DNA of 26,416 nt from Deltaproteobacteria bacterium (lineage in GTDB: Bacteria > Myxococcota_A > JAADFL01): NCBI GenBank assembly GCA_013152945.1, contig JAADFL010000070.1:1-26416 (forward strand). The letters are read 5' to 3'. A program made the translations under genes and the position numbers. Under the pieces are notes generated by a model. The model saw only the letters and a list, made by a program, of their open reading frames with translations, was not told the origin of the DNA and ran no database searches. Below, piece by piece: positions 1,374-24,300 of this stretch (the first letter of the stretch is position 1; each line of letters opens with the position of its first letter).

Positions 1374-3695
1374 ATGAAGGTTCTATTGGTGCACCCGCCC
1401 TTGCTGCTTGGCGCATACTTTGCTAATTACCCGAGTTTCTCCGACATGGGTATGCTGTACCTTGCGGCATTCCTGCGGGAAAAAGGCTTTGACGTCTTTG
1501 TTGCAGATTCGCTTTGTCCGGGCGACGGAAAAATATCCTACAAAGAAAGCGGCAACGGCAGGTTCCTGCTGGGCACGGAGCCGGCAAAACTTTCAGCCAT
1601 GATACCGGCTGGCGCAGATGCAATCCTGATGTCCGCGCCGCTCTATGCAAGTCCAAGACGTTACCACTCTACCATGCTGAAGGAGACTATTTCGGTCTTC
1701 AGAAAGGCTAATCCAGGGGCTCCAGTAATAATTGCGGACATGTACATCGGTGGCATAGATTACTTACCATACGACCCCAAAGCACTGCTCGATTCGAACG
1801 CGGAAATCGACTTTGTGATACAAGGTGAGGCCGAGCTTACCACGACCGCTTTACTTGAAAGGTTGCAATCAGGGAAAGGGGCTTTTCCAGGGGGTGTGGT
1901 ATACAGGGCGAACCACTGCGGAACCATGTCGCCCGGCAGGCAAATGCTCATTGAAGACCTTGATACCCTTCCCTTGCCTGCATTCGACCTGGTTGGCGAC
2001 GGGCACTATCCAAAGATGCAGGCCATGGCGGCAGGTATGGACCTCATCCATGAGCATACGGAGCAAGTCGAGTATTTGCCTGTAATGTCGAGCAGGGGCT
2101 GCCCATTTGAGTGCTTTTTTTGTGCAGGCGCATTCAAGGGCAATTTCAGGTCACACAGCCCGGAGTACTTTGAAAATAAAATACTTGCCCAGGCGGAAAG
2201 CCTTGGGGCAAAGGTCCTCTTGTTCATGGACGACTGCGCAAATGCTGATCCGCGGCGGTTCGACAAGTTAATTCAGGCCCTAATGAAAAAGAATTTTTCA
2301 TTCGATTTCATGAATGGTTTGCGGGCCGACCTATTGTCAGAAGAGACTATTCATGAATTGAAAAAGGCCGGTGCCATAAAACTGACCATGAGTGCCGAAT
2401 CAGGTGACCAGGCCGTGCTGGACAAGATGATACAAAAAAGACTGGAACTGGCCAGGATTGATAAGGCTCTTGAAGCAGGGAATAAGGCAGGCCTTCGCCA
2501 GCAGGTTCACTACATGATCGGTTTTCCATTCGAGACGCCCGCACAGGTCAACCGCACCCTGTCTTTCGCCCTGGACCGCATGCGCAGGTTCAAGGCAGAG
2601 CCTTTGGTCCAGTTTGCAACTCCTGTGCCCGGCACCAGATTGCACGCCGAATGCAAAGACAATGATTTTCTCGAAACTGATCCAAGCAGCCTTGACCTGC
2701 TGGGGATATTTGAAAAAAGATCGATTATCAACGGAAAATACCTGTCGCCGAATGATCTTTCCTTGTTCATGAAATCCTTTAAAGAGGCAATGGCAGGTAT
2801 CACAGACGATTCAGTCATGGTGGAGATCACAACTGCCTGCAATAATGCGTGTTTGTTTTGTTCCGCCGGTTCCACTCTTTCCAGATCGAACATTTTTCCA
2901 TCTTTAAAAGAGGTAACTCTATGGCTGAAAGAATCATTTGGTAACGGTAAAAGAAGGCTCGAGCTGGACGGTGGAGAACCGACTTTGCATCCAAAACTTT
3001 TCGAAATAATCAGGGCGGCAAAGGATCTTGGCTATGAATCCATTGCCATGGTTACGAACGGACGGCGCCTTGCATACCAAAGTTATACGGCCAAGCTGTT
3101 GGACTCGGGCTTGGATCAGGTGCTGATTTCAGTTCCTTCGGCGATTCCCAAGGAGCACGACCGTATTACCATGGTCCGGGATTCCTTCAGGCAAACCGGG
3201 ATGGGAATAGAAAATGCCCTGGCAACCGGATTTCAATCAGTCTCGATAAACACCGTGCTTTCATCATACACCCTGTCCACTTTGGCCATGACCGTGAACT
3301 GGGCCTGCAAGATGGCTACAGGCAGTGTAAACATACAATATTGCCTTTCAATAGGAAGGGCTGCATCCAATAAAATGACTCCGAAATGGAAAGACGCAGA
3401 AAAGGCATTAAAACAAATTTCCATAAGGCCGGAAGGACCGGACCTGGTGTTGCAAAACATACCTTATTGCCTCCTTCGCGATTCCGGGCTGACCGATAGT
3501 TTTGCCATGGAGCGAGTAAAGCAGGATCGTGTAAGAAGAACTGCGAGCGGAAGGCTATTAAGGTTTGGAGACCTGGTGCAAAAAGGTTTTATGAGAATCG
3601 ACCGGTGCAGTTCGTGTCCCTTTTACATAACCTGTCCGGGTATGCCTGTCGCCGGAACACTGAAGTCGCACGAACAAGGGCGGGGAATTATATGA
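1374..3695 (+). CDS. B12-binding radical SAM protein fused to a second SPASM-like radical SAM module
   Basis: 773 aa, start ATG 1374 (GGGAG at 1356-1360, long spacing) because MKVLLVHPPLLLG is the usual beginning of B12-binding radical SAM proteins. Domain 1: a Rossmann-like cobalamin-binding region (about 1-200), then a radical SAM barrel with CPFECFFC (Cys243, Cys247, Cys250). Domain 2 begins near residue 482 and has its own radical SAM motif CNNACLFC (Cys489, Cys493, Cys496), then GGEPTLHP and VTNGRRLA. The C-terminus carries IPYC followed by C-x2-C-x5-C (Cys745, Cys748, Cys754), which matches the core spacing of SPASM/twitch auxiliary [4Fe-4S] sites. Family knowledge: the first half can methylate or rearrange unactivated carbons; SPASM-like enzymes often modify peptides. 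Domain 2 is clearly paralogous to the next gene, whose start overlaps this stop by ATGA. A two-headed radical SAM protein of this kind is unusual; the substrate is unknown. Confidence 0.9.
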   Translation: MKVLLVHPPLLLGAYFANYPSFSDMGMLYLAAFLREKGFDVFVADSLCPGDGKISYKESGNGRFLLGTEPAKLSAMIPAGADAILMSAPLYASPRRYHSTMLKETISVFRKANPGAPVIIADMYIGGIDYLPYDPKALLDSNAEIDFVIQGEAELTTTALLERLQSGKGAFPGGVVYRANHCGTMSPGRQMLIEDLDTLPLPAFDLVGDGHYPKMQAMAAGMDLIHEHTEQVEYLPVMSSRGCPFECFFCAGAFKGNFRSHSPEYFENKILAQAESLGAKVLLFMDDCANADPRRFDKLIQALMKKNFSFDFMNGLRADLLSEETIHELKKAGAIKLTMSAESGDQAVLDKMIQKRLELARIDKALEAGNKAGLRQQVHYMIGFPFETPAQVNRTLSFALDRMRRFKAEPLVQFATPVPGTRLHAECKDNDFLETDPSSLDLLGIFEKRSIINGKYLSPNDLSLFMKSFKEAMAGITDDSVMVEITTACNNACLFCSAGSTLSRSNIFPSLKEVTLWLKESFGNGKRRLELDGGEPTLHPKLFEIIRAAKDLGYESIAMVTNGRRLAYQSYTAKLLDSGLDQVLISVPSAIPKEHDRITMVRDSFRQTGMGIENALATGFQSVSINTVLSSYTLSTLAMTVNWACKMATGSVNIQYCLSIGRAASNKMTPKWKDAEKALKQISIRPEGPDLVLQNIPYCLLRDSGLTDSFAMERVKQDRVRRTASGRLLRFGDLVQKGFMRIDRCSSCPFYITCPGMPVAGTLKSHEQGRGII

Positions 3696-4582
3696 ACACC
3701 GCCCATAGCACAAAACGCCTGCATCTTATTACCAGCATGGTGTGTAACAACAACTGCTTATTCTGCATTGACGAAGCAGGAGAGAGACCCGGCCTCAATG
3801 TTCAGGATGCTCATATACAGCTTAATGACAACAGGAATCTGGAGAGCGTGGTCTTTACCTGCGGCGAACCGACCTTGCACGGAAACCTTATAGAAATGAT
3901 ACAGGCTGCCGCCGGCTTGGGGTACAAAGAGATACTCTTGGTTACTAACGGCCGGCGACTTGCATATTCCATATATACAAATGCCTTGGTCCAAGCCGGA
4001 TTGACTGGCATAACAGTATCAGTACACGGTTCTTGTTCAAGGGTTCACGACAGGCTGACAAGGACACCGGGGGCTTTTGAGCAAACCCTCATGGGCCTCA
4101 AGAACCTGTCGAAGTTGAGGGACAAAGGCGCAGGCATAAGACTTTCGATCAGCACTGTTGTACAGAAGGGTAACTTGGACGATTTGGCATCACTCCTGGA
4201 ACTCTTATCCGCTTTCGAACCGGATTCCATCGTATTGAATGCGATCCAACCTGCAGGCAGGGCATTGAGCCACTTCAGATCAGTAATGGAGCGATATTCG
4301 TTGATGGCAAAAGGGATTGTCCATGCACTGGAAAAAAAACGGCCGGGCGGGGAAATCGTGGTACAGGGCTTGCCATTTTGCGTTTCGCCCGGAGGGCGGG
4401 TCGATTTCGGACATAGGGAAAACATTGTCATGCGGAAAGATGGCCTGGACATCAACCTGGAACCGAATCGGGGCCAGGTAATGGGCCCTCCATGTCGGGT
4501 ATGCTCCAGGGCAAACGAATGCGGGGGGGTTTTCAAGGCATATGCGGAACATTTCGGATGGGACGAGTTTCACCCGCTTTGA
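3692..4582 (+). CDS. SPASM-like radical SAM protein
   Basis: 296 aa; start ATG 3692 overlaps the preceding stop (ATGA), implying translational coupling. Radical SAM cluster motif CNNNCLFC (Cys18, Cys22, Cys25) lies very near the N-terminus, followed by CGEPTLH and LVTNGRRLAY, almost identical to the second half of the preceding protein. The C-terminus has LPFC and then C-x2-C-x5-C (Cys268, Cys271, Cys277), consistent with one auxiliary iron-sulfur cluster, and ends GWDEFHPL. No B12-binding domain. Expected to be a cytosolic AdoMet-cleaving enzyme. Together with the upstream fused protein and the Cys-rich exported protein 20 bp downstream it forms a three-gene operon. It arose either from duplication of the fused protein's C-terminal half or the other way round. 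Reaction and substrate are unknown. Confidence 0.9.
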   Translation: MNTAHSTKRLHLITSMVCNNNCLFCIDEAGERPGLNVQDAHIQLNDNRNLESVVFTCGEPTLHGNLIEMIQAAAGLGYKEILLVTNGRRLAYSIYTNALVQAGLTGITVSVHGSCSRVHDRLTRTPGAFEQTLMGLKNLSKLRDKGAGIRLSISTVVQKGNLDDLASLLELLSAFEPDSIVLNAIQPAGRALSHFRSVMERYSLMAKGIVHALEKKRPGGEIVVQGLPFCVSPGGRVDFGHRENIVMRKDGLDINLEPNRGQVMGPPCRVCSRANECGGVFKAYAEHFGWDEFHPL

Positions 4583-4601
4583 ACAATTGGAGGCGAGTTG
4601 C

Positions 4602-5480
4602 ATGAAAGCTACATATGCATTTGCCATTCTCGTGGCACTGGCATCCGTAACAGTGGCTGTTTTTTCATTGGTAGAGCTGTCTGGGCAGGAAGCACCCGGC
4701 ACGGAAACAAGACCGGCCAAGAACACCGACACGACTGTTTCCGGCAGGACCAAGGCGTCAAACCATGCCTCCAAGTGTTCCAAAATACCCCCACCGGGAG
4801 GAACCAGAAAGCCATGGTTCGATAAATCCATTATAAAAAATAAGCTTTCATCGCAAAGTACGCTTTGTCTCACTTTCCTTAAAAGACTCATGCACTCCAG
4901 TGAAAACAGCAACCCAAATCCACTTGCCCCAAATAATTCCTTTTTCAGCACAGCACGAGAGCTTCGTATCAATTACTTGTCCTGTTTACAGGCTGCCGGC
5001 CGGAAAGAAGCTTGTTCCACCAATTTTAAAGAAGGTACGGCAAGGACAAAGTGCCTGTCAAAAGCCGTCATATATGGCTTGCTTATGCCCCACTTGGCCC
5101 TGGGCCGGGAATGCCCGGGAGAATTGATTGAGCAATGCAATTCGCTGGGTTACGGATCTATTTGCAAGGCATTGTGCAATGCTAGAACAAGCGGAACGGC
5201 AGCATGCAATGGAATTACAAGGATGAAGGATTTCTGCATGGCTCTTTCGACAGGGGACATTAGTCGCTGCAGCAAGGGCCCTGGTGGTCATGGATGTAAA
5301 GAGGCCTTTGAAATAATGGCCGGCATCAAACAGGGTAAACCGGCCAAGGATGCTTTGTGGCCGGGCACCGGCTTTCTTCAAGGGGAAAACGGGTGCAAAA
5401 GGCTCTTTCAAGAGAATGCCGGCAAAATATGCTCTGATGCCAGCCTGTTCAAGTTCAAGGGAATACCAGGAAAGGATTAA
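4602..5480 (+). CDS. Cys-rich exported protein of unknown function
   Basis: 292 aa, start ATG 4602 supported by GGAGGCGAG at 4589-4597. The N-terminus (MKATYAFAILVALASVTVAV) is a signal peptide or signal anchor without a lipobox. Residues 30-60 are Thr/Ala/Lys-rich and linker-like. The rest is small, basic and carries 15 cysteines, many about 5-15 residues apart (for example FCMALSTGDISRC), suggesting a disulphide-bonded domain outside the cytoplasm. I recognise no family. It is the last gene of the radical SAM operon and converges with the opposite-strand radical SAM gene. It might be a substrate, partner or only a neighbour; the odd cysteine count leaves at least one thiol unpaired if all others form disulphides. 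Confidence 0.75.
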   Translation: MKATYAFAILVALASVTVAVFSLVELSGQEAPGTETRPAKNTDTTVSGRTKASNHASKCSKIPPPGGTRKPWFDKSIIKNKLSSQSTLCLTFLKRLMHSSENSNPNPLAPNNSFFSTARELRINYLSCLQAAGRKEACSTNFKEGTARTKCLSKAVIYGLLMPHLALGRECPGELIEQCNSLGYGSICKALCNARTSGTAACNGITRMKDFCMALSTGDISRCSKGPGGHGCKEAFEIMAGIKQGKPAKDALWPGTGFLQGENGCKRLFQENAGKICSDASLFKFKGIPGKD

Positions 5481-5528
5481 CTGGTGCATTGCCGATAATA
5501 TTTTCCGCATTCCGCCGCTTCTAAAGCC

Positions 5529-6551
5529 TCAGGGGATAGGTACAAAGTCGGAATCGCCATAGAGACTTAAATATCGCAGCCATATTCCCTCGCAGTAATC
5601 ATACAGAGAACAAGACATGCAGAATCCCGGCTTGGTCTTGAGCCTGTCTTTCTTCCTGGCGGTCCAAAGGAACCTGTCAACCAAGCCTGTTTGCGAGCGT
5701 AATACCGCCACGTGTGTCTCCATGTCACGGCGTTCCCCGAGACAGGGTAGGAGCAAGCTCATGTCAGCAAGGATGTGGGGAGGAAGTATGCAAAGCGGCA
5801 AATCCCCGAACGTAATTTTTCTGTTCAATGATTCGAGGTTGTAAATAAACAATTCTCCCAATGCCTCTCCTACTTCCCTCATGCAGGGAACCATGCTTTT
5901 GTCTTCTGCGGTTTTGCCCTCAGGCCTCATCACATTGAACCTGAAATCTCTCACGCCCATGTCTGAAAAAAACTTGCAATATCCCGGCAGGTCGGGGAGA
6001 ACCGGTGCCACCAGTACAGACTCCAGGGCAAGGCCGTGTTCCAGCAGTCCCAGGCTGTCGAGATTAAGCGCCTGGACCAGTCCGTCCATTTTTTGCTTGA
6101 AAGAACCTGGCCGGCCTGTCAGCCTGTCTTCCAGCATTCCATTACGGGAATGTATAGAAATAGCCAGCCTTGTGACCCCGGAATCAACCATCTTGCGGGC
6201 CAGTTCATTTACCGCCAGCCTTGTTCCGTTTGTGCACAGGGCCACCCTTGAGTACCCGATCCGTCGCGCATAATCGACCACTTCTTCCAGCCACGGGTAG
6301 AGCGTGGGCTCTCCACCGAGGAATCCGAGAGATGTGCACCCTTCACCCAATCCTCGTTCAATCTCATCCTTTACCACTTCCCTTGGAGTCCATTGCCGGT
6401 CTGCAGGCGGGACTATTCCGTTGGCGCAAAACAAACATCTGTTGTTACATGCCTTACCCAGGCTTACTTCCAGGTTGATCTGGCGATCCTGCTTTAAACT
6501 CTCACCCGATGATTTGTTCAATTCGCTCCCTGGATTCCCCCTGCAATTCAT
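5529..6551 (-). CDS. SPASM-like radical SAM protein, opposite strand
   Basis: 340 aa as drawn from ATG at 6551; the first 50 nt overlap the end of the upstream HEAT-like gene. A TTG at about residue 11, preceded by AGGGAG, is an alternative start and would shrink the overlap. Radical SAM motif CNNRCLFC (Cys35, Cys39, Cys42), then GGEPTLYP, LCTNGTRLA and AISIHS. The C-terminus has LPLC and C-x2-C-x5-C (Cys311, Cys314, Cys320), ending CEGIWLRYLSLYGDSDF. It is the third paralogue of the SPASM-like module in this locus, more diverged than the two on the plus strand. Probably co-transcribed with the HEAT-like gene. Function unknown beyond AdoMet radical chemistry. Confidence 0.88.
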   Translation of the reverse strand: MNCRGNPGSELNKSSGESLKQDRQINLEVSLGKACNNRCLFCANGIVPPADRQWTPREVVKDEIERGLGEGCTSLGFLGGEPTLYPWLEEVVDYARRIGYSRVALCTNGTRLAVNELARKMVDSGVTRLAISIHSRNGMLEDRLTGRPGSFKQKMDGLVQALNLDSLGLLEHGLALESVLVAPVLPDLPGYCKFFSDMGVRDFRFNVMRPEGKTAEDKSMVPCMREVGEALGELFIYNLESLNRKITFGDLPLCILPPHILADMSLLLPCLGERRDMETHVAVLRSQTGLVDRFLWTARKKDRLKTKPGFCMSCSLYDYCEGIWLRYLSLYGDSDFVPIP

Positions 6552-7212
6552 CCATCCTTAGCCTCAGCACCCGAACCGCTCCGGCCTTTGCTCTGCCTGC
6601 CAGCACCGGAAAAAGAATTTCAGTCCAATCAGGAAGGACCCTTTTCCCACACTGCTGCAATATCTCGAGCAACATGGGAGATAACAATTTTCGTCTCTTG
6701 GGACTTGAATCGGCAAGAGAAGCCAATATCTTTACGGCAGAGTGCTGTATCTCAAGGGTTCCACTGTTGAAAGCCCCAATCAATTCATCTCTTCTCGACC
6801 ATACTACCTGTGGCGCATACTTGCAGATCCATGTCAGCGCCTCCATGGAAGAAGCCACCAGCCAATCCTGCTCGGCATTCAGAAAGGCCAGGAACCTGTC
6901 TGCAAAAGGCATGATCGTGGAAGGAGCCTCTTCTCCGCATGCCGCCAGTGCAGTCGCTGCCGCCGATGAATAGTCTTCGACCTCCATGAGCCGTACAAGT
7001 CCGGCTATGGAGTCATGGTCTCTTTTCCTGCCGAGTGATATTCCATAAGCCCTGTTTTTGGAACGATTCGACTTGGCAGGACCAAGAAAAAGCAGGTGTT
7101 CAATTCCAGGCGATCCTTGGTTGTCGATTTTTGTACTTCTCTTTTTTCTCTTGATATGACGAGATTTCCCCGCCTTTTTCCTATTTCCAGGCTGTTTTTC
7201 CTTTTCAGACAT
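6502..7212 (-). CDS. HEAT-repeat-like helical protein
   Basis: 236 aa, start ATG 7212 chosen because the upstream sequence reads GGAGGGGG-TGCT-ATG on the minus strand, a very strong ribosome site; the frame stays open to 7371 but that part contains the promoter-like elements. The first 60 residues are highly basic (many Lys/Arg, RKKAGKSRHIKRKKRS) and probably disordered or nucleic-acid/anion binding. The remainder is alpha-helical with Ala/Leu-rich repeats (SSAAATALAACGEEA, QHSAVKILASLADSSPK) typical of HEAT/ARM-like scaffolds. No catalytic motif and no signal peptide. Its end overlaps the start of the radical SAM gene, so the two are likely translated together; a scaffold or adaptor role for that enzyme is inference. 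Confidence 0.72.
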   Translation of the reverse strand: MSEKEKQPGNRKKAGKSRHIKRKKRSTKIDNQGSPGIEHLLFLGPAKSNRSKNRAYGISLGRKRDHDSIAGLVRLMEVEDYSSAAATALAACGEEAPSTIMPFADRFLAFLNAEQDWLVASSMEALTWICKYAPQVVWSRRDELIGAFNSGTLEIQHSAVKILASLADSSPKRRKLLSPMLLEILQQCGKRVLPDWTEILFPVLAGRAKAGAVRVLRLRMDELQGESRERIEQIIG

Positions 7213-7395: not shown

Positions 7396-8292
7396 ATGAC
7401 ATTTCCTGTAGCTGGAATCGAAATATCACCTTTTATACCCCTTGGAGCCGGATTCTTCCTGACCTTTTTCCTTTCTTCTGCAGGGGTCTCAGGTGCATTC
7501 ATTCTACTGCCGTTCCAGGTGAGCGTACTTGGATTTACATCACCAGGAGCCACAGCCACAAACCACATATTCAATGTGATGGCCATTCCCGGTGGTATTG
7601 CAAGATATATCAGAGAAAAAAGGATGCTTTGGCCCCTGGCAGGAACCATGCTGCTGGGCACGGGACCGGGAGTGGTTTTGGGATCACTTGGAAGGATATA
7701 CATTCTGTCTGATTCGACGGACTTCAAGTTGTTCATGGGAGTAGTGTTGGCATTGATCGGATCGAGGTTGGCGGCAAAAGCGATGTCAAGCACATCAAGA
7801 AATCCCGTAACATATGAAAATATGCCGGATTTTGATGCTCCAATAAAAATAACGCGATTTGATCACCTTCTTCTGGAATATGAATACCGGGGCGACCATT
7901 ACAGGATTTCCACGCCCGTCTTGGCAGGCATGGGGCTTTTGGTCGGTATCTTGGGAGGTGCGTACGGAGTCGGTGGCGGCGCATTGCTTTCACCTCTGCT
8001 AATAGGTGTATTCAGGTTGCCCGTGTATACCACTGCAGGTGCCACCCTTTTTTGTACCTGGGTATCTTCCCTGATTGCCGCCCTATTCTTCTGGGCTTTA
8101 TCTTCTTTTTTAAACGTGCCTTACATATCGCCTGACTGGCTTCTTGGATTACTTTTCGGTTGCGGCGGCATCATGGGCATGTATATCGGTGCTTCGTTGC
8201 AGTTGAAAATACCGGCCCGGCTGATCGAATTCGTCTTATCAGGGGCTGTATTATCGTTGGCTTGTTTATACATCGCCGGATATTTCCTGTAG
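7396..8292 (+). CDS. TauE/SafE-family membrane permease
   Basis: 298 aa, very hydrophobic with roughly eight membrane segments in two similar halves. The first half has PLGAGFFLTFFLSSAGVSGA and PGATATNHIFNVMAIPGG; the second has YGVGGGALLSPLLIGVF and YTTAGATLFCTWVSS. These paired Gly-rich re-entrant segments are the hallmark of TauE/SafE (UPF0721) transporters, thought to export sulfonates, sulfite or related organic anions. A polar cytosolic loop (about 130-165) links the halves. Start ATG 7396 has no good ribosome site (GGTAAAG is the nearest). The gene is divergent from the HEAT-like gene with 183 bp between starts. Substrate cannot be read from sequence. Confidence 0.9.
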   Translation: MTFPVAGIEISPFIPLGAGFFLTFFLSSAGVSGAFILLPFQVSVLGFTSPGATATNHIFNVMAIPGGIARYIREKRMLWPLAGTMLLGTGPGVVLGSLGRIYILSDSTDFKLFMGVVLALIGSRLAAKAMSSTSRNPVTYENMPDFDAPIKITRFDHLLLEYEYRGDHYRISTPVLAGMGLLVGILGGAYGVGGGALLSPLLIGVFRLPVYTTAGATLFCTWVSSLIAALFFWALSSFLNVPYISPDWLLGLLFGCGGIMGMYIGASLQLKIPARLIEFVLSGAVLSLACLYIAGYFL

Positions 8293-8345
8293 TACTTCAC
8301 CAACCGGAACAAAACCGGGACAAAAAACTTCAAAGGATTATTTAT

Positions 8346-8357
8346 TTGCCATGGCAA
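8346..8357. promoter_or_regulatory. 12-bp perfect palindrome upstream of the MshEN gene
   Basis: TTGCCATGGCAA is self-complementary and lies in the 155-bp gap between the permease and the next gene, about 90 bp before its start. Possible operator; a chance palindrome is also possible. A second, shorter palindrome TTGTACAA follows about 20 bp later. Confidence 0.3.
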
Positions 8358-8447
8358 CGAGGATGGGCTAATCATTGTACAAGGTAACATCATGGTAGGA
8401 AACCGGAGTAATTGGAACGCACTACCTCGAGGAGGCATCGTGCAGGT

Positions 8448-9206
8448 ATGAGACCCAAGCTTGGAGAAATCCTGGTAAATGCAGGTGTCATAGACCAAGT
8501 TCAAATCAGGGCAGCCCTTGCAGAGCAACGAAAGTGGGGAGGACGACTCGGCACCATATTAGTCCAGATGAGGATGCTTTCAGAGGACGAACTGGTAAAT
8601 GCCCTTTCGAAACAACTGAACATACCCAGGTTCAGGTTCAAGGAAGGCGTAGTATCAGAGGATGCCCTGGAACTTGTCGATGTGGACGTTTGCGAAAAAC
8701 ACAGCCTGCTCCCGGTGGCGGTAAACAGTGGGAAAAAGATTCTTCTGATCGCCATGGCCGATCCCACCAACTTCGAGGCGGTGGATGAGATACAATTCTC
8801 CACTGGCCATCGCGTTCAGGTTGCGGTCTGCGGCCCTTCGGAAATACACAAGGCAATCAGGAAATACCACTACGGCGAGACAAGCAATGAAGGCTTTGGA
8901 GGCGTGATGTCAGGCAGGGGAGCCATGAGCTACACGGCCTTCGGTGATTTTTCCCAGGAAAATTTGGTCGAGGAAGGGATTAGCAAACCCATCGTGAGGA
9001 TCAAGAGCAGATCCGATATGCCCAAAGCCGGACAAGGCAGCTCAACGGCAGGCCCGGGCCATAAGGAAGATTATGAAAGGGTTGTGGCCGAACTTGGAGA
9101 TAAGCTGAAAAAGGTCATGCAGGCTCAAAAAGAGTTGATAAATCTGCTCATCGAAAAAAAATTGATAGACAAGAGGGAGCTCATAGACAGGCTGAAAAGA
9201 TTGTAA
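8448..9206 (+). CDS. Stand-alone MshEN (GspE/PilB N-terminal-like) domain protein
   Basis: 252 aa. Start ATG 8448 (MRPKLGEILVNAGVI) with GGAGG at 8431-8435; a TTG at 8412 would add 12 unlikely residues. Residues 1-150 match the N-terminal domain of type II secretion/type IV pilus assembly ATPases: LGEILVNAGVI, a WGGRLGTIL segment, then a second subdomain with LLPVAVNSGKKILLIAMADPTN and a VDEIQFSTGHRV segment. In known MshEN domains this fold binds cyclic di-GMP. No Walker ATPase follows; instead there is a polar linker and a C-terminal amphipathic coiled coil (about 205-252, rich in Lys, Glu and Leu). It is therefore more likely a signalling adaptor than a motor. It precedes the kinase gene by 132 bp on the same strand. 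Confidence 0.82.
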   Translation: MRPKLGEILVNAGVIDQVQIRAALAEQRKWGGRLGTILVQMRMLSEDELVNALSKQLNIPRFRFKEGVVSEDALELVDVDVCEKHSLLPVAVNSGKKILLIAMADPTNFEAVDEIQFSTGHRVQVAVCGPSEIHKAIRKYHYGETSNEGFGGVMSGRGAMSYTAFGDFSQENLVEEGISKPIVRIKSRSDMPKAGQGSSTAGPGHKEDYERVVAELGDKLKKVMQAQKELINLLIEKKLIDKRELIDRLKRL

Positions 9207-9338
9207 AACCGATTATGTCTTGCTTTTCTCTCGAACTAATCATGCAATTCTTTATTCACGGGCCATTAGATAATATGTCCCATGTTCCTCGTGGGTATGC
9301 CTTTACACGGACAAATCCAAAGGCTAAACTCTATCAAT

Positions 9339-11222
9339 ATGGTTGGGGTTAGCCTGTCCAGGTATAAGATACTGGAAGAACTGGGGCGCGGTGGAATGTC
9401 TACCGTGTACGCGGCACAGGATACCGAGCTTAAACGCCTGGTGGCTTTGAAGGTGCTTCATTCGCAACTTGCTTTACGACCTGACATAATGGAGAGATTC
9501 AAGAGAGAAGCAAGGGCGGTCGCCAGATTGCATCATGACAACATCCTGGAAATATACGATTTCAGCGCACAAGGGCCGGAAGGAACATTCATAGTCACGG
9601 AAATGATAGACGGCAAGGATCTGGCCCAACTTCTGTCAGAGCATGTCTTTAAAATACCTGAACTGGGAGTCCTGATAGTTGCCGAAGTTGCCAACGGACT
9701 GGACCATGCCCATGTACACGATATCGTGCACAGAGATATCAAGCCGCAGAACGTCATGATTCGAAGAGATGGCGTGGTCAAACTTACGGACTTCGGCATA
9801 GCCAGGATACTGGATGAAGGCCAGATGACGATGACAGGGACCGTGCTCGGTTCTCCTGCCCATATGTGTCCCGAGCTTATACAGGGTAAGGAAGTCGATT
9901 CCAGGGGCGATATTTTTTCTCTTGGAATACTCTTATACCAGTGCATAACCGGAGAATTGCCGTTCAAAGGAAACAATCCCAGCATATTATTCAAAAAGAT
10001 AATGGAGCTGGACTATCCTCCACCCGAGAGCATCAACCCGGCCGTGGGCAGGAAGCTGTCCTTCATTGTATCCAAGTGCTTGAGGATTAGCCCGAAATCC
10101 AGATTCCAAAGCGCAGCCGAACTAAGGGATCGATTGCTGGATGTCACCGGGGAACTGGGTTTTGAAGAACCGAGGCGGGAAATCAAGCTTGTCCTGGAGA
10201 ATCCGGAGAAAAGAGAACTGGAACTGCTGCCCCATGTTGTTTCGAGACTCAAGAAAAACGCCGAGTCTTACCGACGGGCAAATAAATCGCCCCTTGCTCT
10301 CGATTGCCTCGAAAGGGCATTGGCGCTTGCGCCGGATGATGACGAGAGCCGTACTCTCCTGGAAAAAATATCGAGAAGTAACAGGTTGAAGAGGTATTGG
10401 AAAATTGCATCCGTGCTTGCCGCAGCAGCGACTTTTTTGGTTCTTATTGTTATATATGCGCCGGGTTTCTTCGTGAACAATGGAGCCATGGAAAAGAATC
10501 CGGGCCAAGGAGAATCGTCCAAAGAACAGCCGGAAAATGCGTTTCATGAAAGAACAAATAGTGCCGCGCGCAAACAAGGAACGGCAATAGGTAATAGGAA
10601 GCCAGGATCTATCGATGTTGACTTGAAAGCTACAAAGCATGACCTGAACAGCAAATCCGCGGAAAAGCAGGTGGCAAGGCTGAAATCCAAGTTCGCCAAG
10701 GCACCCGGCCGCAAGTACGTATCACGGCCGAAGCCGATGATTAAAAGACCAGTCCATATTTTTCATTCGAATGATTTCAAAGCAAAAAGAATTATTTTGG
10801 CTCAATTTTGGGCTGACGTGTACCTGGATGGTGAAAAAAAAGGCCGGACACCGCCGCCCATCCCGCTCGATCTCTCTCCGGGAATACATGAGATAAAACT
10901 CGTCAATGCATTTTGCGATCCTACCGTAATCAAGCTCGATATTGAAAAACCAGGAGTGGAGAGGCTGCCGGTACACCTGCATTGTCCTGCCAGGATAATA
11001 TTGAAGGCGCCACCCGGGGCACTGGTTTTTGTCGACCAGAAACTCAGGGGAAGCACGCCTTTAAAGACCCCTTTGGAGCTTGATTGGCCGGAACCGGCTT
11101 TTGAGAAAAAGGTAACCTTGAGGATCACCAAGCGGGCTCACAAGCCCTTTGAAAAAAAACTCTTGCTGAAGCGGGGTGACACCAGGAAAATCCAGGCAGA
11201 GTTGCCACTGGAGAAAAAATGA
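9339..11222 (+). CDS. Transmembrane Ser/Thr protein kinase with C-terminal PEGA domains
   Basis: 627 aa from ATG 9339, chosen because the kinase fold begins at once (RYKILEELGRGG); in-frame ATGs at 9282 and 9297 also lack good ribosome sites, so the start is uncertain. The kinase domain (about 9-285) has a glycine loop GRGGMSTV, Lys38, alpha-C Glu57, HRDIKPQN (131-138) and DFG (151-153), so it should be active. The activation loop carries several Thr and reads CPE where APE is usual. A short helical (TPR-like) stretch precedes a membrane segment near 352-375. The exposed part has a Lys-rich linker and two PEGA-like repeats (about 484-550 and 550-620; VYLDGEKKGRTPPP, VFVDQKLRGSTPL). The stop overlaps the next start (ATGA). 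Likely senses envelope state and signals to neighbouring genes. Confidence 0.92.
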   Translation: MVGVSLSRYKILEELGRGGMSTVYAAQDTELKRLVALKVLHSQLALRPDIMERFKREARAVARLHHDNILEIYDFSAQGPEGTFIVTEMIDGKDLAQLLSEHVFKIPELGVLIVAEVANGLDHAHVHDIVHRDIKPQNVMIRRDGVVKLTDFGIARILDEGQMTMTGTVLGSPAHMCPELIQGKEVDSRGDIFSLGILLYQCITGELPFKGNNPSILFKKIMELDYPPPESINPAVGRKLSFIVSKCLRISPKSRFQSAAELRDRLLDVTGELGFEEPRREIKLVLENPEKRELELLPHVVSRLKKNAESYRRANKSPLALDCLERALALAPDDDESRTLLEKISRSNRLKRYWKIASVLAAAATFLVLIVIYAPGFFVNNGAMEKNPGQGESSKEQPENAFHERTNSAARKQGTAIGNRKPGSIDVDLKATKHDLNSKSAEKQVARLKSKFAKAPGRKYVSRPKPMIKRPVHIFHSNDFKAKRIILAQFWADVYLDGEKKGRTPPPIPLDLSPGIHEIKLVNAFCDPTVIKLDIEKPGVERLPVHLHCPARIILKAPPGALVFVDQKLRGSTPLKTPLELDWPEPAFEKKVTLRITKRAHKPFEKKLLLKRGDTRKIQAELPLEKK

Positions 11223-17623: not shown

Positions 17624-17699
17624 GGGCCGTTAGCTCAGGTGGCAGAGCAGCGGACTTTTAATCCGCAGGTCGCTGGTTCGAATCCAGTACGGCTCACCA
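17624..17699 (+). tRNA. tRNA-Lys (anticodon TTT)
   Basis: Complete cloverleaf: acceptor GGGCCGT pairs with ACGGCTC (one G-T). Anticodon stem GCGGA/TCCGC encloses CTTTTAA with TTT at 17657-17659; the T arm has GGTTCGAATCC. Discriminator A is followed by an encoded CCA (17697-17699). 12 bp before a tRNA-Glu, so the two are probably one transcript. Confidence 0.97.
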
Positions 17700-17711
17700 G
17701 TGAAATCGTGC

Positions 17712-17788
17712 GACCCTATCGTCTAGCCTGGTTAGGACACCAGCCTTTCACGCTGGCGGCACGGGTTCAAATCCCGTTGGGGTCGCCA
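17712..17788 (+). tRNA. tRNA-Glu (anticodon TTC)
   Basis: Acceptor GACCCTA pairs with TGGGGTC (one T-G). Anticodon stem CCAGC/GCTGG encloses CTTTCAC with TTC at 17747-17749; T stem ACGGG/CCCGT with loop TTCAAAT. Discriminator G and encoded CCA (17786-17788). A run of six T follows at once and may help end transcription. Confidence 0.97.
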
Positions 17789-18928: not shown

Positions 18929-19564
18929 ATGGCTGATAAAAAAAAGGATACGAGAAAACAGGGCAGAAAGGATGCCTCCCGGAGGAAGAGGGACAAAGAG
19001 ATCCGTTATGCGGCGTATACTTGTTTTAAAAAACAAGGATACCATGATACAACTGTAGACAGTATCTGCAAGGCTGCTGGAATCAGTAAAGGGGCATTTT
19101 ATTGGCATTTCCAAAGCAAGCAGGACGTATTCCTAAGCATACTTTCGAACTGGGCACAGGAAGTCGAGCAAGAGCTGGCCAAGCAGTTCAAGGATTCACT
19201 TGCCAAGAGGGAGCCTATTGAGGCAGTTGCCAAGGCCCTGGAACTGGAAGCAAGAAAAGAAAGAAAGATAATGCCTGTATGGCTGGATTTTTTAACACAT
19301 GCCAATAGGGATCCAAAAATCAAAACCGTTGTTGCTGATTTTCACAAGAGGATCAGGAAGGCAATTGCAATGCTCCTTGGGCCGTATTTGAAATACCGCT
19401 TCAATGAACAGGAGATCATGGCAATATCCGGGGTCGTGTTTGCCGCATTCCTCGGTCTTATCTGCCAATACCTGGCCGATCCAGATGAAGCCGACTTTAA
19501 ACGGCAGATGGGCAGATTCATGCCTGTGCTCAAATCTTACCTGAAGAAACCCAAAAACGTATAA
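18929..19564 (+). CDS. TetR/AcrR-family transcriptional regulator
   Basis: 211 aa, ATG 18929 with no Shine-Dalgarno. A basic tail of about 24 residues precedes the TetR helix-turn-helix (about 25-75): IRYAAYTCFKKQGYHDTTVD, then ICKAAGISKGAFYWHFQSKQ, an excellent family match. The C-terminal ligand-binding domain is all helical (about 80-205), with a hydrophobic final helix region (ISGVVFAAFLGLICQYL). The gene ends 25 bp before a perfect palindrome lying over the promoter of the acyl-CoA dehydrogenase gene, the expected target. By context the inducer is probably an acyl-CoA or lipid-like molecule, which is inference. Confidence 0.93.
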   Translation: MADKKKDTRKQGRKDASRRKRDKEIRYAAYTCFKKQGYHDTTVDSICKAAGISKGAFYWHFQSKQDVFLSILSNWAQEVEQELAKQFKDSLAKREPIEAVAKALELEARKERKIMPVWLDFLTHANRDPKIKTVVADFHKRIRKAIAMLLGPYLKYRFNEQEIMAISGVVFAAFLGLICQYLADPDEADFKRQMGRFMPVLKSYLKKPKNV

Positions 19565-19661: not shown

Positions 19662-21302
19662 ATGAGTGGGCTGGATGGAGAGACATTGGAACTCGTTATT
19701 TCTTCCTTGAAAAAGTATTCTCAAAAGAAACTTACCCCTGAATACCTGTTGTCCCTGGACAAGGCGGACATATTTCCTAAAGATGTACTCAAGGATCTTT
19801 ACAATCCAAATGAAATCGGATTGCACCTGTTGTTCGTTCCGGAAGAGTTCGGCGGATTCGGTGCCGGTGCATACGATATCTATCGTGTATCCGAGACCCT
19901 GGCTTCAATTGACCTTGGAGTAGCAACCGCCGTGCTGGCTACCTTTCTCGGCACTGACCCGATATCCGTGGGCGGGACGGAGGCACAAAAAAATCATTGG
20001 ATGAAGAGGATTGCCGGTGAGGGGCTGTTGGTGGCTTATGGAGCGACAGAGCCACAGGCAGGCAGTGATCTCACTACACTCAAGACCGTGGCCAAGCCTG
20101 TTGAAAAATCGGACGATGTCACGGGGGATATCAAGGGCTACATTCTCAATGGACAAAAACAATGGATCAGCAACGGTGGCGTGGCGCAGGTATATACCAT
20201 ACTTGCGGATACACCCAAAGGCCCGTCCTGGTTCATTGTCGAAAGGGATACAAAGGGCTTTTCCCACGGCAAGCCGGAGGAAAAGCATGGAATAAGAGCC
20301 AGTAATACGGCGGCACTTTTCTTGGATGACGTTTTTGTACCTGCCGACCGTCTTATTGGAAAAGAGGAAGGCAAGGGCCTAAGCCAGGCACAAGCAGTGT
20401 TCGGCTACACCAGGCTCATGGTGGCGGCATTCGGACTTGGTGCAGGTTGGGCTGCCTTGAAAAGGGCCATAAGATATTCCCAGGAAAGATACCAGGGAGG
20501 CTCCCTGCTCTGTGAAAAGCAGGCGTTTACCCACAAATTGCTTGTGCCGAACGCAGTCAGGTTGGAGACCGCCAGGTCATTTATCGAGTGGACCGCTGAA
20601 AAGATCGATCAGGGCGGCCGGGACATGGCGGTAGAAGGAGCAATAGCCAAGTACCTTGCCACCGAAGGAGGGAATAAGGCGGCTGAAGATGCGATTCAAG
20701 CCCATGGAGGATACGGATATACACGGGAATACATGGTCGAAAAGATCAAGCGGGACGTTCGGATAACCACCATATACGAGGGCACGTCCGAGGTACTGGA
20801 AAACACCATTGCCAGGAGTAGATGGCAGCTTCATCTCAAGACCAGAGGAGAGCATTTCAAGACTTGGAGCAACCGGTTGATGAATGATTCATCGCTGGAA
20901 ACGAGTGGCGGTAGGCAGGCAGGTCTGGCAATGCTTTGGTTGGCTGAAATACTGGAGCGCTGCCGCGAGTCCAGGCTCACAAGGAGCCAACACGTGATGT
21001 ACAGGTTGGGCGAATTAATAACCGTTGCCGAGGGGGCAGCCATATTTGCAGGACAGGTAAAACACAGTCCAAGCAAGGCCGTGCCGTTCGGCCAGGACTG
21101 CATGGATGCCATGTCAAGAATATGCGCCCGGGAAGCTGCTCAAAAAATCGCATGGCATGGTTCCAAGTTGATTGCAGCAGCGAATGGTACACCTCCAAAT
21201 ATAGACTTTTCGGCTGCAATTGAAAGTCAGACCGGGATGATCCAAGACATGGACCTGGTGGCAAAGTCACTAATCGAGGCTTATCCGGCCGGTACAGAAT
21301 AG
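19662..21302 (+). CDS. Acyl-CoA dehydrogenase with long C-terminal extension
   Basis: 546 aa, ATG 19662 with GGAGG seven bases upstream. Typical acyl-CoA dehydrogenase order: helical N-domain, beta domain with [17 protein letters not shown] (FAD/substrate contacts) and [16 protein letters not shown], then the C-terminal helical domain with [26 protein letters not shown] places the catalytic base at Glu373. It should oxidise an acyl-CoA to the 2-enoyl-CoA using FAD, passing electrons to ETF. Standard members end near 390; about 150 further helical residues follow here, as in some longer ACADs. Controlled by the TetR operators just upstream. The next gene starts 14 bp after its stop, so the two are co-transcribed. 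Confidence 0.94.
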
Positions 21303-21316
21303 ACAGGAGTTTCATT

Positions 21317-24300
21317 ATGGACGAGTTTGGAGCAATAGCAGTAGTCGGAAAAGGCGCGGTCATGCCCGATGCCTTGGATGCCGATGCTTTTTGGAAAAAC
21401 ATAGTAGAAAAAAAATACAGTATACGAGAGGTGCCACGGGATCGCTGGCTCGCAGAAGACTACTTCGACCCTAATCCAAGGGCCAAGGACAAGACCTACT
21501 CGAAAATAGGCGCTTTTGTAACAGGCTTCGAGTTCAACTGGAAACGGTTCAAGATTCCTCCAAAGGTGGCAGAAGCCATGGACCCGGCACAGCAATGGGC
21601 AGTGGAGGCGGTATCACAGGCATTGACGGATTATGGATTTCCAGAAAGGTCTTTGGACCTGAAAAATACCGGCGTGATCCTGGGAGCGGCTATGGGCGGC
21701 GACATGCATCTTGAGAACCACCTGCGAATATCTTTTCCAGAGTATAGGCGCCTTCTCGAGTCACTGCCCGAATTCATGCAACTACCCGAGGAAACCAGGA
21801 ACGGGCTCATCACTTCCTGGTACTCAAAGGTCGACCATCGTTTCAAGGCAATCACCGAGGACTCCATGCCGGGTGAATTGCCGAATGTAATATCAGGGCG
21901 AATAGCAAACGTGTTCGACATGAGGGGGACAAATTTCACGATTGATGCTGCGTGTGCATCCAGCCTTGGAGCCTTGGCCGCGGCATCGGAAATGCTCCTT
22001 TCAGGGCGTTGTTCCGCAGTGGTTACGGGCGGGGTCGACCACAACATGTCTGCATCCACATTTGTGAAATTCTGCAAGGTCGGGGCGTTGAGCGGCAAGG
22101 GCAGCAGGCCTTTCGGCAAGGGTGCCGACGGTTTCGTGATGGGAGAGGGATGCGCCGTGCTCCTGTTGAAGAGACTTGAAGACGCAATCGCCTCGGGTGA
22201 CAAGGTTTACGCGGTCATCAGAGGAATCGGATCGTCCGGGGACGGGAAGGGTAAGGGCATTACTGCACCAAATCCAAACGGACAGAGACTCGCGATAGAG
22301 AGAGCCTGGAAAACAGCCGGCCTGGATCCATTGACAACAGGGCTCGTGGAAGCACACGGTACCAGCACGGCCGTGGGGGACATGGTCGAAGCCCAGGTTT
22401 TGAATGATATCTTTTCTGGCACAAAGCCGGGAATGATTGCCCTTGGATCGGTGAAAAGCAATATCGGTCATCTCAAGGCTGCGGCCGGGGCTGCAGGCTT
22501 ACTCAAGGCAGTCATGGCAATAGACAAGAAAGTATTTCCGCCCACCCTGCATTCTGATCCGCCCAACCCGGGAATAGATTTTTCAAAGAGTTCATTCAGG
22601 CTCTCCCGGGAACTCGATGAATGGAACACGCATGGAAACACACCAAGGCGCGCGGGTGTGAGCGCCTATGGATTCGGCGGTACGAACTTTCATGTCATTC
22701 TGGAAGAATTCACCGGAAGACTCAATGGAAAGATTAAAGGTATAAATGGTGGGGGCTCAATTAAAGCCGGTCGAACGGAATTCGGGCATGCACGAAACAA
22801 CAGTGGTGAAAAGCCGGTTGTTTCAGGAATCGAGGGAGAATCAGGGCAACGAATCACCGGCTCGTACGGGATCGATCCCGGCGATGGTAATGTAAGGAGC
22901 AGGAGCTACTTGCTTTCAGGTATTATTGCATTCCAAGCGAACACAAAGAGTGAATTGTTCGAAATGCTCGAGCAAGCACTCGAAGATCCTTCTTTGGCAG
23001 TCGAAAAACATGGTTTAAACGATTTTATTAGGCTTTCAGGCAAAGAACGGCTGGTGATCGAACATAACGGGCAAAAAGAATTGACGAAAAAGCTCAAGTT
23101 GGTGAAAACCGCGATATCAAAGGATGACAAGGCCACCTGGAACGCCTTGAAAGGGCAGGGTATCTTCAGATCCAATAATGATACGGATACCAAGTTGGCC
23201 TTTCTTTACCCCGGGCAAGGCTCGCAGTACCTGAACATGGGCAGGAAACTGATCGAATCAGAACCTGCTGCGGCAAAGGTATTTGCAGAAGCCGACAAGA
23301 TAATGACACCTATCTTGAACCAGCCCCTTACATCCTACTTGTTCCTTGACCCGAAGGACGAGGCAGGGAAAAAGAAAGCCGAAATGGCATTGATGGACAC
23401 TGCCATTACACAGCCTGCCGTGCTCGCGCTCGATATAGCATTGACGCGCGTTCTCGAGGAAAAGGGCTTTATTCCACAAGTTGTCATGGGGCATTCACTT
23501 GGTGAGTATGCTGCTCTCGTAGCAGCAGGTGTCTTGCCTTTCGCCCATGCTCTGGAGGCTGCCGCCGCCAGAGGCAAAGAAATGGCTGACGTGAAGGTTG
23601 AAGATAAAGGCAGGATGGCCGCTGTTTTTGCATCCAAGCGAGATGTGGAAAAGATACTGAAACAAGTAGATGGATATGTGATAATCGCCAACCTCAACAG
23701 TTCCAATCAATTCGTGATTGGGGGCGCTACAAAGGCCATAGAGGATGCAAGCGCAAGGTTTCAACGTCTCGGAATACGGGTTGTGCAATTGCCGGTGAGT
23801 CATGCCTTCCATACTCGCATCGTAGAGCCCGCAGCCATCCCGTTGAGGAGAGTCTTGGACAGGCTGGACTTCAGACCGCCGGGCATTCCATTGATCTCGA
23901 ACGTGACGGGCGAACCATATCCAAACGACGTGCAAGGAATAAAAGACTTATTGCAGAAACAGATCTCATCCCCGGTGCAGTGGATAAAGAGTTTGAAGAC
24001 GCTGCACCGGATGAATACGGGAATTTTCCTGGAGGTGGGCCCGAAGAAGGCCCTGTCGGCCTTTACCGAAGATGTCTTGGCCAATGAATCCGGGATTTTG
24101 TCAACCTTTACCAATCACCCGAAGCTTGGTGACATCAAGTCGTTGAGGCAGGCCATATGCGGTCTCCTTGCTGCCGGAAAAGGCAAACACTTACAGAAAG
24201 AAAACGCTGTGAGCCTGGATGTTTTCCGACAGGAAACCGGAAAAAAAGAGGTTAATGAGATGAAAAACCGATTTAAAACTTTTTCAAAGCCTATTGGATC

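Follow-up and report, generated by a model that had tools for sequence, protein, structure and literature searches.

We analyzed a 26,416 bp stretch of DNA (hereafter, 'the window') that constitutes the entire contig C70 (JAADFL010000070.1) of a Myxococcota genome assembly of 218 contigs and 4.84 Mb, and in which three genes, P0002, P0003, and P0005, encode radical S-adenosylmethionine (SAM) enzymes. We find that the families of these three enzymes have a real and conserved association with the core genes of the His-Xaa-Ser (Hxs) system, a system (HxsA4, HxsB, HxsC4, and HxsD in NCBIfam) predicted by Haft and Basu, as cited in PMC9062424. The family link is shown by phylogeny, by profile searches, by co-occurrence across genomes, and by recurrent gene order in relatives. 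Because of these family links, and because this genome encodes an HxsA4, an HxsB, and an HxsD of its own on a different contig, we conclude that P0002, P0003, and P0005 are probably maturases of an extended Hxs (type 4) peptide system of Myxococcota, detached from its core genes. An initial annotation of the window had regarded the radical SAM genes as one multi-step system, with peptide modification as the likely activity, and this is borne out: the P0002, P0003, and P0005 families track, and in many cases adjoin, HxsB, HxsD, and a peptide of His-Gly-Ser (HGS) repeats, and the homologues are not scattered singly but fall in one expanded family. The same annotation could match the locus to no described system; the match is to the extended predicted Hxs system.

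Four radical SAM units in three proteins

Each of the four radical SAM units, two in P0002 and one each in P0003 and P0005, has both a CxxxCxxC motif, as first reported in the initial annotation, and a Radical_SAM domain. Pfam Radical_SAM matches P0002 in two stretches (1.9e-35), P0003 (5.7e-13), and P0005 (7.6e-20). The second half of P0002, P0003, and P0005 are twitch-type domains, and all three share GEPTL, TNG(R/T)RLA, and a final CxxCxxxxxC, in agreement with the initial annotation. They resemble SkfB, SuiB, anSME, and BlsE in having a barrel and a four-Cys auxiliary site (P-x-C, CxxCxxxxxC). In contrast to maturases of the twitch/SPASM type that act on ribosomally synthesized and post-translationally modified peptides (RiPPs), P0002, P0003, and P0005 have no match to the full SPASM domain (PF13186), and alignments of P0002 and P0003 show a four-Cys twitch-like site in its place.

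Co-occurrence with HxsB and His-Xaa-Ser repeats

Full-length relatives of P0002 (~30% identity) are present, nearly always in single copy, in 76 of the 377 genomes sampled from the phylum. HxsB, counted as a TIGR03978 match over cut-off, is present in 125 of the 377 genomes overall vs. 73 of the 76 P0002-positive genomes (Fisher's exact test, 1.4e-39), and the three P0002-positive genomes without HxsB are incomplete assemblies (58–89%). Within three families that are mixed for P0002, HxsB is present in 27 of 27 P0002-positive genomes and absent from at least 12 of 14 negatives. DNA coding for (His-Xaa-Ser)5 is present in 75 of the 76 P0002-positive genomes, including all 62 high-quality ones, and in 7 of 76 HxsB-negative genomes; for these seven the matches listed resemble other simple repeats, and none of the seven has HGS codons throughout in a known HxsA context.

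In a tree built from 170 radical SAM domains of related loci, the recurrent families A, B, C, D, and E and the P0002 family are resolved, and P0003 groups with family B, the HxsC4 clade, with support 98. The best named NCBIfam relative of both P0003 and P0005 is HxsC4, and three B-clade genes beside HxsA4 score 606–631 bits on the HxsC4 model, above its cut-off of 500. Profile searches of the 377 genomes separate B (at least 313 bits vs. at most 246 for other paralogues) and E (at least 336 vs. at most 244). HxsB is present in 52 of 53 B-positive and in 37 of 37 E-positive genomes. The P0002 family co-occurs with B in 46 of the 53 B-positive genomes (Fisher's exact test, 3e-31) and with E in 34 of the 37 E-positive genomes (8e-24); E lies within 12 kb of a P0002 relative in 21 genomes from six families, and B does so in seven genomes from five families, the window included. 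In the genome analyzed here, A- and C-family enzymes are on contig C218. This genome and its relatives have a strong expansion of radical SAM genes (24–48 matches in one genome), much of it as HxsC4-like tandem arrays. Two related loci (L115, 2705–3295; L157, 13107–13613) contain, near intact genes, small genes whose product corresponds to just the C-terminal half, with the auxiliary-cluster site, of an HxsC4-like enzyme.

Gene order around the Hxs core

The association extends to gene order. Many loci group HxsD, an HxsD-related gene, HxsB, a small gene, and B, and in ten genomes B-clade genes lie 1.4–2.4 kb from HxsB, beside the HGS-repeat peptide HxsA4. In several loci, the product of the small gene that separates HxsB from B is a (His-Gly-Ser)n peptide ending in HGSW, and all four HGS peptides tested score above the HxsA4 cut-off. 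P0002 relatives adjoin HxsD-HxsB in loci L141 and L125 and lie across from them in L102. An aKG-HExxH peptide beta-hydroxylase (TIGR04267) recurs in these clusters, which points to peptide chemistry; enzymes of its family are reported (PMC12636437) to act on RiPP precursors by hydroxylating His, Asp, and Gln. The loci found were from Myxococcota/Deltaproteobacteria only, in one contig scan with narrow peptide patterns that says little beyond the phylum.

P0005 was placed neither by the 170-domain tree, in which it is a long branch, nor by profile scores. Its orthologues were later found by direct comparison with Hxs loci: 13 of 79 other genomes searched contain one (36–40% identity over most of the length, at least 190 bits), a count that carries no co-occurrence information, the search set being mainly HxsB-positive genomes. 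In all seven genomes having both genes on one contig, the P0005 orthologue is 3.3–4.0 kb from HxsB, and the order in these seven genomes, from five families, is HxsD, HxsD-related, HxsB, HGS peptide, radical SAM, radical SAM, P0005 orthologue, with the HGS peptide not called as a separate gene in two of the seven.

The Hxs core of this genome

The genome contains a single His-Xaa-Ser repeat locus, on contig C27. As in the Hxs system at large, HxsA4, HxsB, and HxsD are over curated cut-offs here: HxsB scores ~530.5 bits (cut-off 370), HxsD (TIGR03976) 60.0 bits (cut-off 50), and a 151-residue HGS-repeat protein (8013–8468 of locus L049, minus strand) 55.1 bits on HxsA4 (NF038313; cut-off 55). 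The contig also carries an HxsD-related gene (NF038315; 44.5 bits, cut-off 41) and a radical SAM-methyltransferase fusion. The HxsA4-like peptide of this genome itself bears a twin-arginine-like signal; several relatives have a distinct small protein with such a start ahead of HxsD, and their HxsA shows no such signal.

P0002, a two-headed enzyme

P0002, a rare but conserved fusion, would be the most distinctive new part of this extended form of the known but uncharacterised Hxs system. Residues 1–477 form a cobalamin-type radical SAM half, and residues 477–759 form a twitch-type (HxsC4-like) radical SAM half. Both CxxxCxxC sets, the four auxiliary Cys residues (C699 and C745/C748/C754), and GGEPT are invariant in an alignment of 40 P0002 sequences. 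An AlphaFold2 model (predicted local distance difference test, pLDDT, 85.9; predicted template modelling score, pTM, 0.88) has fold matches, for the first half, to AprD4 (Z 28.8), MgmA (25.3), OxsB (25.1), CysS (24.5), and TsrM (24.2), and, for the second half, to viperin (Z 22.9), SkfB (22.4), SuiB (21.7), and BlsE (21.0). Profile comparison with solved chains gives AprD4 (3.5e-29) for the first half and BlsE (4.6e-21) and PqqE (2.1e-16) for the second. Among NCBIfam models, P0002 scores highest on that of the RiPP enzyme ApyD (98 bits, cut-off 750); no NCBIfam cut-off is reached, and no NCBIfam model describes the two-headed fusion.

Fold comparison places a Rossmann-type domain ahead of the first radical SAM domain. 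P0002 shares this Rossmann plus radical SAM arrangement (Z 24–25) with class-1 cobalamin radical SAM enzymes (OxsB, TsrM, TokK; MgmA, CysS, ApyD), but in P0002 a second, complete radical SAM domain follows. In class 1 the Rossmann domain binds cobalamin without a His ligand (PMC13331322), which fits P0002, in which the classical His motif is absent. Use of cobalamin by P0002 is probable. Pfam B12-binding is detected at E ≤ 0.01 in 16 of 40 P0002 relatives. FbiC (FO synthase) likewise has two complete radical SAM domains on one chain but is not known to have a cobalamin-type domain, and neither half of P0002 has the CofG or CofH models among its best NCBIfam matches.

Several genes stand beside P0002 relatives in related loci. 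A tryptophan halogenase (343 bits; locus L109, 6934–8490, genome G294) lies directly upstream of one, in a cluster with B, C, and D families, and could add a halogenation step in a single lineage. SAM methyltransferases that bear an N-terminal Cys cluster (L126, 10596–11537; L088, 10512–12380; L121, 1088–2935) adjoin radical SAM domains, or are fused to them, next to P0002 relatives; in L088, the radical SAM part has lost its CxxxCxxC. Methyltransferases fused to radical SAM domains, or encoded beside them, in related loci are consistent with a product that is extensively modified.

Proposed mechanism

We propose that P0002, P0003, and P0005 would act in trans on the HGS-repeat peptide HxsA4. 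Several cobalamin radical SAM enzymes methylate proteins or peptides, and by analogy the first head of P0002 would make a carbon-centred change, most likely methylation of an unactivated carbon. The second head of P0002, P0003, and P0005 would, before export, subject the same repeats to further radical reactions that use an auxiliary cluster (oxidation, epimerisation, or cross-linking). The presence of two radical sites on one chain suggests successive handling of neighbouring repeats. A tentative elaboration, which we think possible though we would not favour it, is that the P0002 heads act in turn on successive HGS repeats, together with HxsB, HxsC4, the P0005 type, and the radical SAM-methyltransferase; if so, at least six radical sites would be involved, and the product would be a densely modified, exported polymer of polyhistidine type, a new chemical class. 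As to function, metal binding by the exported, modified His-rich peptide is a guess.

The Hxs system, long only a prediction, now has a defined set of partner enzymes across one phylum (the two-headed fusion, HxsC4, the P0005 type, the E family with methyltransferases, and the HExxH hydroxylase) and a clear substrate candidate. Its parts may be spread over the genome, in which case cluster-based mining would miss them.

Points against the proposal and alternative readings

Several observations weigh against the assignment of P0002, P0003, and P0005 to an Hxs system. The window contains no His-Xaa-Ser repeat and no core Hxs gene, the core being on another contig, although in relatives the radical SAM families of the window do share clusters with Hxs core genes. 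P0003 is in the HxsC4 clade, and the P0002 and P0005 families accompany HxsB and HGS repeats, but P0003 is a long branch within its clade and scores 194.6 bits on HxsC4 (NF038332), far under the cut-off of 500, and the P0005 type, like P0002, is below all NCBIfam cut-offs. The B12-binding domain assigned to P0002 in the initial annotation is consistent with the fold matches, but its Pfam score of about 21.7–21.8 bits is below the cut-off of 32.1. AprD4, the strongest structural match to the first half, is not known to use cobalamin, so methylation by the first head is unsure. Most co-occurrence tests are uncorrected for relatedness. Literature searches on HxsC4, HxsA–D, and double radical SAM fusions returned no characterised reaction or product.

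An unlikely alternative, the best of those considered, is that the locus is self-contained, with Hxs-derived enzymes re-directed to P0004, a 15-Cys protein with a hydrophobic N-terminus encoded in the same operon, and with P0006 as a scaffold. The tight, co-directional packing of P0002-P0003-P0004, the overlap of P0005 and P0006, the location of the core Hxs genes elsewhere in the genome, and the long branches of P0003 and P0005 would all fit such a locus. However, at loose E-values no convincing P0004 homologue is present in 36 other genomes or in any of the collected loci, and no P0006 homologue is present in the collected loci. Cys-rich genes are common in these genomes and are not enriched beside these radical SAM genes (9% adjacent vs. 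5–17% at distances 2 to 7), and the P0002 family follows HGS repeats in 75 of 76 genomes. On present sequence comparisons, P0004 and P0006 are orphans whose membership in the system is not supported. The Cys content of P0004 is as the initial annotation described it; the proposal that it and P0006 are system parts is not supported. The overlap of P0005 with P0006 is as first described, but P0006 has no Pfam match, including to HEAT, and only a low-confidence, all-helical single-sequence model (pLDDT 57), too weak for a fold, HEAT or other, to be assigned. Cys-rich proteins near HxsC4-clade genes in loci L115 and L124 were also considered as substrates and were dropped, such genes being abundant in these genomes.

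We regard as improbable, somewhat more so than a re-directed locus, that the product of the enzymes is a small molecule, cofactor, or lipid instead of a modified peptide. Among the solved relatives closest in sequence are AprD4 and BlsE, whose substrates are small molecules that contain sugars, and methyltransferase partners and a halogenase such as that beside one P0002 relative also occur in small-molecule pathways. Against this stand the near-perfect nesting of these families within HxsB-positive, HGS-repeat-positive genomes and their recurrent position beside HxsA4 and the TIGR04267 peptide beta-hydroxylase; the cofactor or lipid pathway offered in the initial annotation has less support than peptide modification. 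Chance grouping of unrelated enzymes, conceivable in a genome with dozens of radical SAM genes in which neighbours may arise randomly, is very improbable, because co-occurrence or gene order links each of the three families to the same system and because there is a four-base overlap between the P0002 and P0003 genes.

Layout of the locus and neighbouring genes

The genes form two convergent operon-like groups, P0002-P0003-P0004 on the plus strand (1374–5480) and P0006-P0005 on the minus strand (7212–5529) (Table 1). P0002-P0003-P0004 look like one operon, because the P0003 start lies within the P0002 stop codon (ATGA, a four-base overlap at 3692–3695) and the spacing to the P0004 start is 20 bases. 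The P0005/P0006 overlap on the minus strand is 50 bases. Promoter and terminator scans gave little above chance.

Table 1. Coordinates of the radical SAM locus within the window.
Feature	Position	Strand	Evidence or status
P0002, two-headed enzyme, 773 aa	1374..3695	+	Pfam; 76/377 genomes; 40-sequence alignment; AlphaFold2; fold matches
P0002 first CxxxCxxC, Cys243/247/250	2100..2123	+	sequence; invariant across 40 aligned rows
P0002 second CxxxCxxC, Cys489/493/496	2838..2861	+	sequence; invariant across 40 aligned rows
P0003, radical SAM, HxsC4 clade, 296 aa	3692..4582	+	tree; NF038332 score; alignment
P0003 CxxxCxxC, Cys18/22/25	3743..3766	+	sequence; invariant across 12 aligned rows
P0004, exported or membrane-anchored, 15 Cys	4602..5480	+	orphan; system membership not supported
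P0005, radical SAM, 340 aa	5529..6551	-	orthologue of last gene in conserved HxsD-HxsB-HxsA-rSAM-rSAM operon (rSAM, radical SAM)
P0005 CxxxCxxC, Cys35/39/42	6426..6449	-	sequence
P0006, helical protein	6502..7212 (open frame to 7371)	-	no family or homologue; low-confidence all-helical model; membership not supported

The left end of the contig (1–258) is a tandem array of 2.9 copies of an 89 bp unit (97% matches), probably an intergenic repeat that interrupted the assembly. Elsewhere in the window, a stand-alone protein that has an MshEN/c-di-GMP-binding domain but no PilB-type ATPase domain (8448–9206) adjoins a Ser/Thr kinase with a PEGA domain (9282–11222), and a tRNA-Lys and tRNA-Glu pair is present at 17624–17788. 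A TetR regulator (18929–19564) and an acyl-CoA dehydrogenase (19662–21302) precede the start of a large polyketide- or polyunsaturated-fatty-acid-type synthase (21317–26416), which has ketosynthase and acyltransferase domains and runs off the contig with 1700 residues visible.

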